From Labilibaculum manganireducens (GTDB lineage: Bacteria; Bacteroidota; Bacteroidia; Bacteroidales; Marinifilaceae), in the NCBI RefSeq assembly GCF_002843385.1, contig NZ_MVDE01000009.1:62001-126000 (forward strand): a DNA stretch of 64,000 nucleotides, read 5' to 3'. Under the pieces are notes generated by a model that was not told the DNA's origin, made no database searches, and was given only the letters and a program-made list of their open reading frames with translations. The stretch's first letter is position 1. Each line of letters starts with the position of its first letter. The translations under genes were made by a program, and so were the position numbers. This document shows, piece after piece, positions 9,509 through 29,212 of the stretch.

Positions 9509-9760
9509 ATGGAACTTAACTTGAAGAAAGTTACTGAAATCAAAAATAGTACCGCTATGTTAGAACATCAGAAATTTGTTTTACAATCGGTTTCAGATCA
9601 GAAACATTTGTTTCGAAAAGAACTTCTGAAATCATTCGAATGGTTAACCGAAAAGGAACAAGTAGAATTGTTTACCTGGTTAAAAAGTAATTTCTATTTT
9701 TCTCACAAAGATTGTGTTGAGCAGGCATTTAGACATTCGTTGATTCAGGAAGGAGCCTAA
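9509..9760 (+). CDS. Small protein downstream of hsp20, function unknown
   Basis: 83 residues, predicted helical, with alternating Lys/Glu and aromatic residues (SFEWLTEKEQVELFTWLKSN). I do not recognise a family. It starts 34 bases after the hsp20 stop, and a strong terminator follows about 50 bases after its own stop, so it is likely the second gene of a heat-shock transcript. No signal peptide or membrane segment is present. It may be a chaperone partner, but this is guesswork from position only. Confidence 0.6.
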   Translation: MELNLKKVTEIKNSTAMLEHQKFVLQSVSDQKHLFRKELLKSFEWLTEKEQVELFTWLKSNFYFSHKDCVEQAFRHSLIQEGA

Positions 9761-9810
9761 TGACATAAATGATTTCTTAAATTTAAAAAGTAAACAGAGA
9801 AACTAGTTTA

Positions 9811-19217: not shown

Positions 19218-19958
19218 ATGCCAAGCAGACCACTTAACGATTACATATCTGTAGATTGCGTAATATTCGGATACAATGGACAAGAACTACAAGTTTTACT
19301 TGTAGATAGAACACTTACTAATAATTCCACAGGACAGCCCGAGTTTACTGATTTAACATTAACAGGAAATCACATCTATGAAGATGAAACTATTGAGCAG
19401 GCAGCTTATCGTGTTTTATTTGACTTAACAGGTTTAAAAAATGTATTCCTTGATCAATTTAAAACATTTGCGCATCCCGACAGATTAAAAAAAGAGAATG
19501 ACAGAAGATGGTTAATTCACGATGGCAGAGACCCTGATAAAAGAATTGTATCAATTGGATATTTTGCCCTTCTGGCAACACAGAATATTACCTTAGAGTG
19601 GAAAGGCAGAAACGTGAAATGGGTTCCTGTATCAGAAGTTGGAGAACTGGCATTCGATCACAATCAAATTCTGGAGGAAGCTTTAATTGCATTACGAAAT
19701 AAAATTAAGCAAGAACCAATCGGCTTTGAATTGCTTCCTGAAAAATTTAGTCTGACACAACTACAAAACATATACGAGGTGATATTAAGCACTGAGTTGG
19801 ACAAGAGAAATTTCAGAAAAAAAATTGCCCGCATGAAATATTTGATTCCTACGGATGAAAAACAAACAGGAGTTGCTCATAAACCCGCACGCCTTTATGT
19901 ATTTAGCAGAGAGGTTTATGAAAAAACAAAAAAGGAATTATTTGATTTCACAGTCTAA
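19218..19958 (+). CDS. Nudix-type (NrtR/AraR-like) transcriptional regulator
   Basis: 246 residues: an N-terminal Nudix fold (about 8-150) and a C-terminal winged helix (about 165-246, with LTQLQNIYEVIL and NFRKKIARMKYLIPT). The Nudix box, residues 50-73, has lost its metal-binding glutamates: where REUxEExGU is expected it reads RVLFDLTGL. It is therefore very likely not a hydrolase but a sugar-sensing repressor or activator. Characterised relatives include NrtR and the Bacteroides AraR. It is the first gene of the glucan locus, 9 bases before the transporter, and a palindrome lies upstream of it. The effector is probably a glucan breakdown product or sugar phosphate (inference). Confidence 0.85.
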   Translation: MPSRPLNDYISVDCVIFGYNGQELQVLLVDRTLTNNSTGQPEFTDLTLTGNHIYEDETIEQAAYRVLFDLTGLKNVFLDQFKTFAHPDRLKKENDRRWLIHDGRDPDKRIVSIGYFALLATQNITLEWKGRNVKWVPVSEVGELAFDHNQILEEALIALRNKIKQEPIGFELLPEKFSLTQLQNIYEVILSTELDKRNFRKKIARMKYLIPTDEKQTGVAHKPARLYVFSREVYEKTKKELFDFTV

Positions 19959-24068: not shown

Positions 24069-24081
24069 TAAATACATAGTG

Positions 24082-25815
24082 ATGAAGATCAAGAACTATA
24101 AAATATACGCATGCCTGCTTTCTGTATTATTTACAGCATTTGCTTGTACCCAAAAAATGGATGAACCTGTTCCGGCAAACGAACAACTCATACTTGCCAA
24201 TCAAGTTGGATATGAGAACAATGCTCCTAAAAAGGCAATGATCAGAACAAGTGCCGATCTGTTTCAAATTAAAAACAGCAATGGTAAAATCATACTTGAA
24301 AAAGCTGTTGGTTCGAAACAATATAGTTCATTATCAGGTGATACGATCCAATCAATAGATTTTTCGGAATTAACAGATAAGGGGGAGTATTATATTATAG
24401 CAAATGACAGCATCATCTCAAATAAAATCATCATATCAGAAAGACCTTACGCGGAACTTGCAAAAGCTTCGCTTAAGTCTTTCTATCTGAATCGATCAGG
24501 AATGAAAATTGACAGTTTGTATGGTGGAATTTGGGCTCGCCCGGAAGGTCACCCCGATACAATTGTATATTATCACTCTTCTGCTGCAGATAAAAATCAT
24601 CCCGAAAATAGTATTGTATCATCACCAAAAGGCTGGTACGATGCCGGGGATTACAACAAATACATCGTTAACAGCAGTATTTCAACCTACACTTTACTTT
24701 TTGCATATAAATCATTCCCAGCTTACTTCAATGAACTGAACGTGAACATTCCGGAATCAAATAACGAAATTCCTGATATTTTGGACGAAGCATTGTACAA
24801 TTTACGATGGATGATGACAATGCAGGATACTTTTGATGGTGGCGTTTATCACAAGCTAACCACTAAAAATTTTGAAGGTTTTGTAATGCCGCATGAAGCT
24901 GCCAATAAAAGATATTTGGTTCAGAAAAGTACGGCTGCAGCATTGGATTTTGCTGCAACAATGGCTTATGCTTCCCGGCTTTTTGCTGATTTTAGTTCGA
25001 GCTTGCCTGGTTTGGCTGATTCTTGCTTAATTCAATCAGAAAAAGCATGGAAATGGGCAGTTAAAAATCCAAATATCTTATACGAACAAGCCTCTGATAT
25101 AAATGCCGGAGCCTATGACGATACTAATTTAAGCGATGAATGGTACTGGGCATCTGCCGAATTATATCTGGCAACAGCCAACAATAAGTATAATAAGCAT
25201 CACAAAAACAATGATATTAATATTACAACTCCGGGATGGCAGGATGTAAATACCTTAGGCATAATTTCCTTACTAACTTCTGATATGAAGGGTGAATACA
25301 CCGAATTGAAAGATGTTTTTTTAAAGAACATCGATCAACTAATTGAGATTGAAAACAATTCACCATATAAAATCGCTGTTGAGAAATACGAATGGGGAAG
25401 TAATTCAGAATTTGCCAATCAAGGAATGATGAAATTACTTGCATACCAAATAACAAAGAATTCCAAATACCTGAACTCAGCAAGAGAGAGTTTAGACTAT
25501 TTGCTTGGCCGAAATGCAACTGCTTATTGCTTTGTAACAGGTTTTGGTTCTTTGAGCCCAATGAATATTCACCACCGACCTTCTGCTGCCGATTCTGTTC
25601 ATGAACCTGTGCCTGGCTTTTTGGTTGGCGGCCCCAATTTAATTGTTCCCAACGATTGTGGTTCTGATGTTATCAGATCTACTTACCCTGCTAAATCCTA
25701 TGCTGATGAGCAATGTAGTTATTCGACTAATGAAATTGCCATTAACTGGAATGCTCCGCTTGTTTATTTAACCTCAGGAATCGATGCTTATGGAAAAGGT
25801 CGTAAAGAAGAATAA
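24082..25815 (+). CDS. GH9 endoglucanase lipoprotein with N-terminal Ig-like domain
   Basis: 577 residues from the ATG at 24082 (a GTG three bases earlier is less likely). The lipoprotein signal has Cys22 in FACTQ. An N-terminal CelD_N Ig-like domain spans about 30-115 (ILANQVGYENNAPKKAMIR), followed by the GH9 (alpha/alpha)6 catalytic domain. Active-site motifs are visible: WYDAGDYNKY with Asp187 and Asp190 (base), HHRPSAAD, and the acid Glu551 in STNEIAINWNAPL. It hydrolyses beta-1,4 bonds in cellulose, mixed-linkage glucan or xyloglucan; the exact substrate is open. It probably faces the cell surface. It starts 13 bases after the GH94 stop, so both are cotranscribed. Confidence 0.92.
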   Translation: MKIKNYKIYACLLSVLFTAFACTQKMDEPVPANEQLILANQVGYENNAPKKAMIRTSADLFQIKNSNGKIILEKAVGSKQYSSLSGDTIQSIDFSELTDKGEYYIIANDSIISNKIIISERPYAELAKASLKSFYLNRSGMKIDSLYGGIWARPEGHPDTIVYYHSSAADKNHPENSIVSSPKGWYDAGDYNKYIVNSSISTYTLLFAYKSFPAYFNELNVNIPESNNEIPDILDEALYNLRWMMTMQDTFDGGVYHKLTTKNFEGFVMPHEAANKRYLVQKSTAAALDFAATMAYASRLFADFSSSLPGLADSCLIQSEKAWKWAVKNPNILYEQASDINAGAYDDTNLSDEWYWASAELYLATANNKYNKHHKNNDINITTPGWQDVNTLGIISLLTSDMKGEYTELKDVFLKNIDQLIEIENNSPYKIAVEKYEWGSNSEFANQGMMKLLAYQITKNSKYLNSARESLDYLLGRNATAYCFVTGFGSLSPMNIHHRPSAADSVHEPVPGFLVGGPNLIVPNDCGSDVIRSTYPAKSYADEQCSYSTNEIAINWNAPLVYLTSGIDAYGKGRKEE

Positions 25816-25834
25816 AAAAATGCCGGAAAGATTA

Positions 25835-25886
25835 GTTGGTCCTCTCCTTCCGACAAATAATTCATTTTATTAATACGCTAATGAAT
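25835..25886 (+). repeat. 52-bp leader element, copy 1
   Basis: Begins with GTTGGTCCTCTCCTT and ends with AATACGCTAATGAAT, both identical to copy 2; the 22 central bases are only partly conserved. It lies 20 bases after the GH9 stop codon. Confidence 0.85.
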
Positions 25887-26117
25887 CGGCGCAAATTTAT
25901 AAAAAAAAAGGGGAATTAGAAGAACACTAATTCTCTGATAAGCAATAGTGAAACAACTATTCACAAAAGACAATACTCTTATTTTCTCTTTTGTGAATAT
26001 CGAAAACGATGTAAATCTGATTTTCAGTAACTACACATAAATTTTAAAGTCTAAAAATACACATATGATAAAAAACAAAGATTAAAAAAAGTTTATATCA
26101 AAAACCCATTAGGATGT

Positions 26118-26169
26118 GTTGGTCCTCTCCTTTTGGGAAATAAATTGTAACCATAATACGCTAATGAAT
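26118..26169 (+). repeat. 52-bp leader element, copy 2, abutting the susC start
   Basis: Same 15-base arms as copy 1 in the same order and spacing, with different central bases. Its end lies 7 bases upstream of the susC ATG, so the right arm covers the ribosome-binding region. Confidence 0.85.
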
Positions 26170-26176
26170 TAATTTT

Positions 26177-29100
26177 ATGAAAAAATCTGAGATTTTTAAT
26201 GCTCCCACACATTGCCTTAAAACAGGGAAGCTAAACAACCGTAGATGGCTTTTGAAGTCATCCATGTTATTACTGATGGTATTTTGCAATGTATCCATCA
26301 TGTTTGGTCAAAGTACTAACAAGGAAATTATTGGTAAGATAACTGACTCCTCCGGTTTTGGTATACCTGGTGTTAATATTTCCTTAAAGGCAACTACAGT
26401 TGGAACAGTTTCCGATATTGATGGAAATTATTTTATTTCTGCCAATTCCGAAAACGTTATCGTTTATAGTTTTATTGGCTACACAAGCCAAGAAATTCTA
26501 GTTGGTAATCAAACTACAATCAATGTTCTTATGTCTGAAGATGCAATAGGCATGGATGAAGTTATTGTTGTTGGTTATGGTGTTCAGAAAAAGACACTTA
26601 ATACTGGATCAATTTCCAGCGTAAAAGGCGAAGATATTGCAAAAACATCAACCGGATTATTGCAACAAGCACTTCAGGGAAAATCTGCAGGAGTATCTAT
26701 TTTACCAACTTCTGGAGCTCCGGGTTCAGGTGTTAAAATACGTATTCGAGGTGTAGGTTCAAATGGAAACTCAAATCCATTATACATCGTCGATGGGATG
26801 AAAACAGGTGCTATTGATAACATTCAACCCGCTGATATTGCATCTGTTGAAATCCTTAAAGATGCTGCATCGGCAGCAATTTACGGAAACGAAGGAGCCA
26901 ATGGTGTATTAATTATTACAACCAAATCTGGTAAAGGAAAAAAGGGTGAAATTAACTACAACTTTTCCACAGGGATTCAGTCGATTTCAACCAAAGCTGA
27001 AATGATGAATGCTCAAGAATACATGCAATTTCAAACAGAGGCCGGAAACTCGATTAGCGATGATTCAGGAGTTGATACAGACTGGATTGATGAAGTTTCA
27101 GAAAATGCTTCTATTCAAAAGCATTATTTAAGCTTTGCAGGTGGAACAGATAAAACATCTTACATGCTTTCAGGATCTTATCTGAATCAAGATGGAGCTA
27201 TTGGAGGCAGTAATGCAAATTTTGAACGATTTACAACTCGTATCAACCTGAAAAGTGAAATGAAAGAATGGTTGGATGTTGGTGTAAATATGAGTTATTC
27301 ACATCATACCAGAAAAACCATTTCGGAAGATGATGAGTATAGAGGAATCATGAACAATGTTCTTTTAGCTGATCCTTTATCTCCTGTTTTTGACTCGAAC
27401 AATTCCGGTTGGATTTCTCCAAGTGGAAAAGCTTATGGAAAAGCAAACTATGTAACTGGTGAAATTCAAAATCCTGTCGCATTTATTGAAATGAGTAACA
27501 ATAAATATACTGTCGACAAAGTTTTGGGAATGGCTTTTGCGAGCATAAAACCATTAAAAGGTTTAACCTTTACCTCTCGTATTGGCTTAGACTTATCCTA
27601 CAACACCCAAAGTAGGTGGGCTCCTCTTTATAACTTTTCAACCGAGCAAAAAAATGAAACAACCAATGTCGAAGATAATATTGATAGATATTATACTTGG
27701 TTGTGGGAAAACTTTGCTTCATACAACACTACTTTTGGAGATCATGATTTTACGTTCCTTTTAGGTACAGCGGCTGAACAATATACTCATCCTAACTATT
27801 ATTTAAAATCAGGCCCAATGGTTAAAGAAGGCTCTAATTATGCCTATCATGATTATACCTTAGATGATACTCAGGACAGAACCGGAGGAAAACTTGAAGA
27901 AAATACTAAAAACTCTTATTTCGGTAGATTATCATATAACTACGCAGCGAAATACATGGTAGAAGCTACTTTAAGATATGATGGTCATTCTAACTTGGCA
28001 GAAGGAAATAAATGGGATACATTCCCTTCCATTTCAGCAGGATGGTTGATATCTGAAGAAGGTTTTTGGAAATCAGATGCTATCAACTATTTAAAACTGA
28101 GAACCAGTTGGGGACAAAATGGTAGTGTTGCAAACACCCCTGGTTTCGAAGATCGTGAGTTTTGGCAATCAGGTCTAAGATATCCTAATCCTACAGGAGG
28201 ACTATTTACCGGAGGTACTCGCGTAGAAAAAGCTGTAAATACAGATCTTCGATGGGAAAAATCAGAACAATCAAATATTGGGGTAGAATTGAGAGCTTTT
28301 AATAGTAAACTGACTTTCGCCGCTGACTATTACGAAAAAACAACTAAAGATCTGATTGTTGCCGGGGAAACTGCTCCTTCAGTTGGGAACAACGCAAATC
28401 CAATGATAAACGGAGGTAATGTTTCTAATAAAGGATTCGATTTTGAATTAGGTTACAGAGATAATTTTGATGGATTGGAATTCGGCATCAACTTGAACTT
28501 GGCAACAGTTAAAAATAAGGTTACCAGCTTAACTCGTAACACCCCGGTTCCTGGAGCTGAAGTTAGAAGTTCAAAGTTAACATGGTTTGAGCAAGGAGAA
28601 CCAATCTGGTACTACAAAGGATACAAAACCGATGGTATAAATTCTGCTGATGGATCAGTAAACATCGTTGATGTAAATGAAGATGGAGAAATAACTTCTG
28701 ATGACATGACTAACATTGGTAGTCCACATCCGGATTTAATCTTTGGTGCAAATCTTAATTTAGCCTATAAAGGATTCGATTTTGCTGTATTTATGCAAGG
28801 GACAGCTGGAAATGAGAATTATATGGCTTGGTTCAGAAACGACCGTACTTATTCTAACAAACCTAAGTATTTCTTTACCGATAGATGGACACAAGCTGGC
28901 GATATTGCTTCTATGCCTAAACCAGACAACAGTAGCGATAATTTATACCGTAGCGATTTAATGGTAAAAGATGCCTCTTATATAAGAATAAAGCAGATTC
29001 AATTAGGCTATAATGTTTCTCAAAAATACCTAGATAAACTTCACCTTTCAAAATTCAGAGCATTTGTATCATTAGACGACTTCTTTACATTTACGAAGTA

Positions 29101-29212
29101 TCCAGGATTAGATCCTGAAGCAGGTACAAATCGTAATGACTCACAGGGAATTGATAGAGGAGTATATCCTTCTATAAAGAAGGTAATGTTTGGATTTTCT
29201 GTAGGTCTTTAA
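26177..29212 (+). CDS. SusC-like TonB-dependent outer-membrane glycan transporter
   Basis: 1011 residues. After a 24-residue basic extension comes a signal sequence (about 25-45, ending IMFGQ). Then follow a carboxypeptidase-regulatory-like beta domain (about 50-120), the MDEVIVVGYG segment (126-135) typical of SusC proteins, a plug domain (about 140-255) and a 22-strand barrel ending in an aromatic-terminated strand. With the SusD next door it forms the lid-and-bin uptake complex for oligosaccharides, powered by TonB. The start is preceded by one of a pair of 52-base elements, which probably govern its expression. The specificity must come from the neighbouring beta-glucan enzymes. Confidence 0.95.
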   Translation: MKKSEIFNAPTHCLKTGKLNNRRWLLKSSMLLLMVFCNVSIMFGQSTNKEIIGKITDSSGFGIPGVNISLKATTVGTVSDIDGNYFISANSENVIVYSFIGYTSQEILVGNQTTINVLMSEDAIGMDEVIVVGYGVQKKTLNTGSISSVKGEDIAKTSTGLLQQALQGKSAGVSILPTSGAPGSGVKIRIRGVGSNGNSNPLYIVDGMKTGAIDNIQPADIASVEILKDAASAAIYGNEGANGVLIITTKSGKGKKGEINYNFSTGIQSISTKAEMMNAQEYMQFQTEAGNSISDDSGVDTDWIDEVSENASIQKHYLSFAGGTDKTSYMLSGSYLNQDGAIGGSNANFERFTTRINLKSEMKEWLDVGVNMSYSHHTRKTISEDDEYRGIMNNVLLADPLSPVFDSNNSGWISPSGKAYGKANYVTGEIQNPVAFIEMSNNKYTVDKVLGMAFASIKPLKGLTFTSRIGLDLSYNTQSRWAPLYNFSTEQKNETTNVEDNIDRYYTWLWENFASYNTTFGDHDFTFLLGTAAEQYTHPNYYLKSGPMVKEGSNYAYHDYTLDDTQDRTGGKLEENTKNSYFGRLSYNYAAKYMVEATLRYDGHSNLAEGNKWDTFPSISAGWLISEEGFWKSDAINYLKLRTSWGQNGSVANTPGFEDREFWQSGLRYPNPTGGLFTGGTRVEKAVNTDLRWEKSEQSNIGVELRAFNSKLTFAADYYEKTTKDLIVAGETAPSVGNNANPMINGGNVSNKGFDFELGYRDNFDGLEFGINLNLATVKNKVTSLTRNTPVPGAEVRSSKLTWFEQGEPIWYYKGYKTDGINSADGSVNIVDVNEDGEITSDDMTNIGSPHPDLIFGANLNLAYKGFDFAVFMQGTAGNENYMAWFRNDRTYSNKPKYFFTDRWTQAGDIASMPKPDNSSDNLYRSDLMVKDASYIRIKQIQLGYNVSQKYLDKLHLSKFRAFVSLDDFFTFTKYPGLDPEAGTNRNDSQGIDRGVYPSIKKVMFGFSVGL

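Follow-up and report, generated by a model that had tools for sequence, protein, structure and literature searches.

A Probable DonS-like Antisense Small RNA Gene and Its Duplicated Copy Ahead of a susC Gene in Labilibaculum

We think it likely that the two similar elements ahead of a susC gene in Labilibaculum manganireducens represent a PUL antisense RNA of the DonS type that has been duplicated, the upstream copy (copy 1) being the gene of a 74-nt small RNA, here called sRNA-1, the susC-proximal copy (copy 2) being its target, and the RNA acting to lower SusC. The sequence itself displays the anatomy of the RNA gene, its strand, its conservation, its tie to the PUL and the one-sided decay of copy 2.

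Anatomy and strand of the sRNA-1 gene

The window, by which we mean the whole stretch of 64,000 nucleotides that was analysed, contains two 52-bp copies with identical 15-base arms and equal spacing, as a sequence-only reading of this DNA had reported. In window positions the arms GTTGGTCCTCTCCTT and AATACGCTAATGAAT stand at 25835-25849 and 25872-25886 in copy 1 (25835-25886, plus strand in the pattern scan and part of the sRNA-1 gene viewed from the opposite strand), and at 26118-26132 and 26155-26169 in copy 2. In both copies 22 bases separate the arms, and the full arm-N22-arm pattern gives two matches in the window against zero expected from 100 shuffles. For each arm there are exactly two perfect matches in the whole genome (5.3 Mb, 97 contigs), namely copies 1 and 2. 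At three mismatches or fewer the 5′ arm GTTGGTCCTCTCCTT finds 80 genome matches against 152 for a reversed-pattern control, and the 3′ arm AATACGCTAATGAAT finds 314 against 267, so near matches to the arms are roughly at background. Conserved sequence extends past the 52 bp on both sides, taking in a promoter box, a stem and an A-run. The exact spacing proposed for the pair holds for both window copies (N = 22) but is not rigid among relatives, where N is 15, 21, 22 or 23; such a range is a poor fit to a rigid DNA site.

This bears on whether the arms are the two halves of a DNA operator bound by a transcription factor, for example the NrtR/AraR-like regulator of the PUL. Two identical sites near promoters would fit such an arrangement in a cluster that opens with a Nudix-winged-helix regulator, but with spacings of 15, 21, 22 and 23, arms that are not palindromes, no further perfect arm copies in the genome, and the RNA signs of paired stem changes and a U-run, we regard an operator as extremely unlikely.

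Read on the minus strand, copy 1 looks like a compact small-RNA gene, with a promoter box, a 5′ hairpin, a terminator hairpin and a U-run. The order is TAAATTTG (25899-25892), four free bases, +1 at 25887, GAUUCAUU-loop-AAUGAAUU, a linker, the terminator hairpin and seven U; the predicted 74-nt antisense RNA thus occupies 25814-25887 of the minus strand, from +1 at 25887 to the end of the U-run at about 25814. The earlier suggestion that copy 1 might be the start of a small RNA is in this respect upheld, but on the minus strand. The stop codon of the GH9 gene (24079-25815, plus strand) overlaps the U-run. The -7 promoter box TAAATTTG (25892-25899, minus strand) covers positions -12 to -5, and in Flavobacterium psychrophilum the housekeeping box is described as TAnnTTTG at those same positions (PMC9723704); taking the box position as given in that description, the start of sRNA-1 falls exactly on the first conserved base, for the conserved block begins at the predicted start, 25887. 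TAnnTTTG stands at -12 to -5 in all 13 copy-1 or single elements, with the free positions nn varying between AA, CT and TT, which yields the variants TAAATTTG, TACTTTTG and TATTTTTG. The box of sRNA-1 is the only TAnnTTTG on the plus strand at 25701-26200 or the minus strand at 25701-26300, against a background of 0.00064 per position.

The 5′ hairpin (25859-25887, minus strand) pairs GAUUCAUU (25887-25880) with AAUGAAUU (25866-25859), carries AGCGUAUUA in its loop, and has 7-8 pairs in 13 of 13 copy-1 or single elements. The terminator hairpin (25821-25855, minus strand) pairs 25855-25846 with 25830-25821 around a loop of 15 that includes GGACCAAC; its predicted energy is -16.3 kcal/mol, and seven U follow (25820-25814). 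A standard terminator scan with a loop limit of 8, set against the sRNA-1 loop of 15, listed neither minus-strand hairpin, and its one plus-strand site, which lies inside susC, does not rise above background. In Rfam searches the gathering score was reached in the whole window only by one distant tRNA, and the eight matches at 25700-26300 were all below threshold (best E 0.22). We find it scarcely credible that copy 1 instead encodes a short peptide beginning at an ATG in the 3′ side of the 5′ hairpin: read by eye, a one-frame ATG does recur in the copy-1 and single elements, but sRNA-1 of the source genome contains no stop codon before the terminator, and many between-genus differences change the amino acid yet keep the stem pairs.

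The sequences on either side of the 5′ arm pair into a stem, which assigns the fold to a strand. Over 180 cells in 18 distinct rows, the minus-strand stem has 140 Watson-Crick pairs, 17 G-U, 23 other and no A-C; since each minus-strand G-U would be an A-C mismatch on the plus strand, the fold belongs to the minus strand. The two-hairpin fold of 18 pairs is paired in 193 of 198 cells across 11 copy-1 or single rows. The 74-nt minus strand of the source genome (G000) folds with z = -4.39, and 71 nt of G049 with z = -5.87, compared with -0.38 for the plus strand of G000. The expectation of a structured RNA in place of a simple duplication was accordingly a good one, whereas the plus-strand leader RNA, attenuator and decoy offered beside it do not agree with a minus-strand fold (17 G-U against 0 A-C; z -4.39 against -0.38).

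A leader element in the susC mRNA, whether riboswitch, attenuator or protein site on the plus strand, thus appears to us very unlikely. Copy 2 does lie within the presumed susC leader, counted over 11 rows on the plus strand the stem still reaches 77.3% pairing, and plus-strand folds of 107-109 nt round copy 1 reach z = -2.61 in G003 and -2.09 in G049; these last values we attribute to the strong hairpin, which leaves some pairing on either strand. Against this reading stand the 17 minus-strand G-U cells that become A-C mismatches, the z values of -0.38 for copy 1 and -0.40 for copy 2 of the source genome, the absence of any Rfam match at gathering score and, in a scan of 25600-26300 for a hairpin plus T-run, of any on the plus strand. 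R1, a covariance model of both copies (13 rows) in the plus-strand reading, had located relatives before that reading was overturned by the strand test (17 G-U, 0 A-C on the minus strand). A plus-strand pseudoknot of GUUGGU with GCUAAU, both sides of which are invariant in alignment A1, became moot once the strand was settled.

Covariation points the same way in part. The 87.2% of cells paired and the 18 cells changed on both sides were each reached by none of 500 shuffles, and the true stem stands well above six slid versions of itself (33.9-65.0% paired, 0-7 cells changed on both sides). The four pairs changed on both sides were matched by 289 of 500 shuffles and the 12 further pair types by 196; in the copy-1 and single rows the same two measures were reached by 227 and 288 of 500. 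Two of the five covariation measures are therefore not above shuffles, which themselves ignore the relatedness of the rows, and the G-U/A-C asymmetry is a stronger sign of strand than shuffle-based covariation. G050 and G038, whose elements match those of G049 and G035 exactly, were left out of the rows for stem and covariation, arm identity, promoter and 5′ hairpin, and two-hairpin fold, G050 also of those for duplex energy; G002 and G008 copy 1, the same as in G000, were left out of alignment A3. Ancylomarina rows are in the duplex-energy, promoter and 5′-hairpin, and two-hairpin sets and absent from A2, the alignment for stem, covariation and arm identity.

Decay of copy 2 and conservation of the arms

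The copy in the presumed susC leader, copy 2, seems to be retained chiefly as a pairing site for sRNA-1, and the two copies are not of equal standing: we read them as an RNA gene and a decayed gene with its pairing sites preserved. TAnnTTTG stands at -12 to -5 in none of 10 copy-2 elements; the decayed promoter (26170-26185, minus strand) reads TAAAATTA in most relatives and is shifted by a 5-base deletion in the source genome. Nor has any of the 10 kept the 5′ hairpin: the best partner gives 6 of 8 pairs, and no loop is left. A residual hairpin at 26105-26137 pairs CCCAAAAGG with CCTAATGGG on the minus strand and is followed by U5 at 26104-26100; it reaches -8.8 kcal/mol, against -16.3 in copy 1, and includes two A-A mismatches. 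The 70-nt minus strand of copy 2 folds with z = -1.22, and its plus strand with -0.40. Scored by R2, a minus-strand covariance model made from the copy-1 and single rows, copy 2 obtains 40-55 bits in all 10 two-copy family genomes against 93-111 for copy 1 or single elements, a comparison in which the model's own rows score high by construction and copy 2 is not among them.

Both copies might still be active antisense RNA genes producing sibling sRNAs, with copy 2 on another promoter type, and this we consider unlikely. In most genomes copy 2 retains a hairpin and a short U-run, the sequence TAAATTGA that most relatives have near its start is similar to the box TAnnTTGY described as SM5 (PMC9723704), and some of the copy-2 stem changes compensate; the persistence of these compensating changes suggests that copy 2 may not be purely a target. 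On the other side, TAnnTTTG and the 5′ hairpin are missing in 10 of 10 copy-2 elements, the terminator is about half as stable, and the source genome and G002 have suffered a further 5-base deletion at the predicted copy-2 start.

Our preferred reading, that of an RNA gene and its target, is also consistent with what has been kept. Between copy 1 and copy 2 of nine genomes, 134 of 135 bases are equal in the 3′ arm and 133 of 135 in the 5′ arm, against 77 of 198 in the linker, 36 of 90 in the 3′ stem and 3 of 36 in the promoter spacer, with gaps counted as differences; arms kept while linker, 3′ stem and promoter spacer diverge are what one would expect if the arms alone were needed for pairing. 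Among the arm exceptions, single copy-1 changes in G007 (3′ arm) and G004 (5′ arm) are tolerated by G-U pairing, and one copy-2 change in G007 breaks an edge pair; in Ancylomarina 2 of 15 bases differ in the 5′ arm. While four-fold sites of GH94 show 38-55% pairwise identity among five genomes, comparison with three single-copy genomes finds 39 of 39 positions unchanged in the 13-base 5′ seed and 22 of 24 in the loop core. In single-copy species full complementarity in cis requires no conserved sequence, and the conserved loops may thus also serve another target or a protein.

Distribution and association with the PUL

The order of the PUL is NrtR/AraR-like Nudix regulator, MFS_2, GH94, GH9, element pair, SusC, SusD, GH30 and GH3, the presumed target being susC (26177-29212, plus strand), which encodes a TonB-dependent SusC-like transporter. 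The regulator at its head (19218-19958) joins Nudix and NrtR/AraR-type winged-helix parts, and a similar one heads the PUL in three relatives checked (L208, L210, L211).

The exact pattern is present in six of nine genus genomes, always as two copies on the same strand 275-283 bp apart, and in 8 of 56 family genomes. Strong R1 matches (63-95 bits) were obtained in 14 of the 56, with two copies in G000-G005, G007, G008, G049 and G050 and one in G034, G035, G038 and G040; ten further genomes gave only weak matches (31 bits or less), for 24 of 56 in all at E up to 1. The weak R1 matches inspected were L089, L090 and a locus on contig C14 that is taken up below. R2 likewise matched strongly in 14 of 56 genomes, with weak matches in G001, G020 and G045. 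Two copies are found in Labilibaculum and Ancylomarina, and a single copy in Marinifilum and one further genus. A collection-wide pattern scan brought up 37 stretches, of which 11 are real by R1 (best per locus E < 1e-11) and 26 are not (best 0.32). Order-wide searches, each of 393 evenly drawn genomes, found no convincing member outside the family (best 8.8e-5 and 9.7e-5), and the four order-wide matches inspected (L105-L108, with L107 the best of the 9.7e-5 search) have a hairpin without both arms together.

A GH94 orthologue (at least 79% identity) occurs in 14 of 14 genomes with strong matches and in none of the 42 others, and in all 14, as well as in Ancylomarina, the element or pair is directly followed by a SusC-type receptor gene. 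By the ORFs of 150 aa or more, G035 and G040 have no GH9 between GH94 and the element, and G004 has none there either, its GH94 ending 25 bases before the element; since the element stands at susC whatever gene precedes it, it goes with susC. G006 has neither the element nor a GH94 orthologue, and the partial SusC there ends at the contig end. The link to susC that had been proposed was well founded: in the 56 family genomes every strong match lies directly before susC or in a tandem pair there, not at random intergenic sites.

The SusC of the source locus shares 51-59% identity with its counterparts in six genus members (91% with that of G008), and the GH94 is 93-98% identical. A SusC that has diverged behind leader arms that are the same or nearly so gives the impression that the transporter was exchanged while the leader stayed in place.

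Predicted pairing and comparison with known antisense RNAs

In the source genome 290 bp separate the start of copy 1 from the susC ATG (26177) downstream of it, and copy 2, as the earlier reading held, ends 7 bases before that ATG. The susC-proximal element likewise lies 7 bases before the ATG in G002 and 12 in the other relatives checked, and 12 is also the distance in single-copy species. The 5′ arm of copy 2 (26118-26132, plus strand), in the presumed susC leader, is the predicted pairing site for the sRNA-1 terminator loop, and its 3′ arm (26155-26169, plus strand), 8-22 nt upstream of the ATG, that for the sRNA-1 5′ end. The predicted duplex of sRNA-1 with its own susC leader has an energy of -68.9 kcal/mol, against a mean of -21.7 (sd 3.4, minimum -37.1) for 300 shuffled leaders, and lies between -50.6 and -73.9 kcal/mol in all 10 two-copy loci tested; with 13 other susC starts of the source genome, sRNA-1 gives -17.8 to -32.3 kcal/mol. 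With the 3′ arm ending 7 bases before the ATG, pairing would cover the susC start region, and the effect at the susC start that the sequence-only reading foresaw is supported to that extent.

A tentative susC promoter, TTTG-N18-TAAATCTG (25990-26019, plus strand; predicted start at about 26024), lies between the copies, so that copy 2 but not copy 1 would fall in the susC mRNA. It has one mismatch to TAnnTTTG and is not kept in G008 or G049. At 25958-26010 there is a 16-base inverted repeat, TATTCACAAAAGACAA/TTCTCTTTTGTGAATA, followed by ATCGAAAACGAT, and seven of eight aligned genomes, all but G003, have CGAAAACGAT; the inverted repeat may be an operator or part of a promoter for susC.

We propose that the housekeeping sigma factor would drive transcription of sRNA-1 from the minus strand, and that its intrinsic terminator would stop it. 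In the ancestral state a single sRNA gene would have lain opposite the susC leader; the leader would then have been duplicated in the Labilibaculum/Ancylomarina lineage, the upstream copy remaining an RNA gene and the susC-proximal copy presumably losing its promoter and 5′ hairpin while keeping two sRNA-pairing stretches. First contact would most likely be loop to loop, between GGACCAAC of sRNA-1 and GUUGGUCC of the leader, after which the sRNA-1 5′ end would pair with 15-17 bases of the leader immediately before the susC ATG. Ribosome entry would be blocked, and SusC and the products of the downstream genes would be lowered separately from the upstream NrtR-MFS-GH94-GH9 genes. In this scheme we infer the direction of the duplication, the expression of sRNA-1, its pairing in the cell and the repression.

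A further intergenic element was seen in another PUL, between CE2 esterase and GH42 genes, on contig C14 of the source genome (95685-95780; L042, L161 and L207, at about 9690-9785). That PUL has its own hybrid two-component regulator, and the C14 stretch is kept in five genus members (G000, G002, G006, G007, G008), of which G006 is without the GH94 orthologue. In eight relatives the minus strand of copy 2 agrees with it at 25 of 26 positions (E 3.8e-4 to 7.3e-4); with copy 2 of the source genome, which bears the deletion, the longest exact common run is 15 bases. Both sRNA-1 pairing sequences are common to the C14 element, and AGGACCAA and a strong hairpin follow in it. In the same search two other matches (E 2.8e-4 and 3.1e-4, in G039 and G035, at 88% identity) were at least as good as those to the copy-2 region. 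The duplex of a C14 RNA with the susC leader comes to -44.1, within the range of 300 shuffles (minimum -46.2), and other susC starts reach -53.8; an energy so unexceptional does not support pairing between the two. A single match to the seed pattern in G024 is probably due to chance, the reversed control giving six matches in 56 genomes.

Other leaders were screened at 13 further susC matches (E < 1e-100) in the source genome, which are not all of its susC genes, and none of the 13 has a near-start hairpin as strong as that of copy 1 (-16.3). Minus-strand hairpins lie 296-473 bases upstream of the match start at L226, L227, L231 and L232, with one far out in L232 (about 790). At L224 (contig C8 of G000) a weak minus-strand hairpin with a T-run (-7.3 kcal/mol) lies about 124 bases upstream of the match start and so perhaps close to the real start codon; it could be the end of a second antisense RNA.

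To our knowledge, how trans-acting small RNAs originate from cis-antisense RNAs is an open question. This one locus displays a single-copy state (Marinifilum), a duplicated state with one-sided decay (Labilibaculum, Ancylomarina), and pairing sites that have been kept. We speculate, while holding it to be possible rather than probable, that tandem duplication turned a self-complementary antisense gene into a trans-acting sRNA and a target that are free to change except at two pairing sites, and that a C14 RNA could tie PULs together. Literature searches returned no paper on Labilibaculum with sRNA; among those combining the names of the group with antisense or small RNA, no title pointed to the present RNA.

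A 2016 study by Cao et al. reportedly dealt with DonS and the PUL-associated cis-antisense RNAs of Bacteroides. DonS-type antisense RNAs are described as lying opposite susC homologues, and the annotation of B. thetaiotaomicron counts 32 that are associated with PULs (PMC7366714, PMC10994844). Like DonS, sRNA-1 is a small RNA encoded divergently at the start of the susC homologue of a PUL, in all 14 of the genomes with strong matches among the 56, and by analogy it would be expected to lower SusC; we liken the two by position and description and not by sequence. It differs in being 74 nt between its predicted ends, where the DonS family is given as 78-128 nt (PMC7366714), in belonging to another family of the Bacteroidota, in the tandem duplication that has split the RNA gene from its target, and in loops that are kept across genera. 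FopS and GibS are Bacteroidaceae sRNAs of a family marked by the R1 seed and by RbpB binding, GibS carrying two seeds; the FopS RNAs, of about 65-70 nt and with housekeeping promoters, act through their 5′ ends at the start region of susC mRNA, binding near the start codon and stopping translation, according to the account in PMC11697453. By analogy with FopS and the DonS-type RNAs, sRNA-1 should lower SusC, although, comparing by description, FopS is a set of 14 paralogues on many PULs (as presented in PMC11697453) and sRNA-1 one RNA gene beside its own PUL. If our reading is true, antisense control of susC extends from gut Bacteroides to a marine-sediment group and a PUL with GH94, GH9, GH30 and GH3. 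PUL antisense RNAs are as a kind already known; the separation of an RNA gene from a kept target after tandem duplication is the new part.
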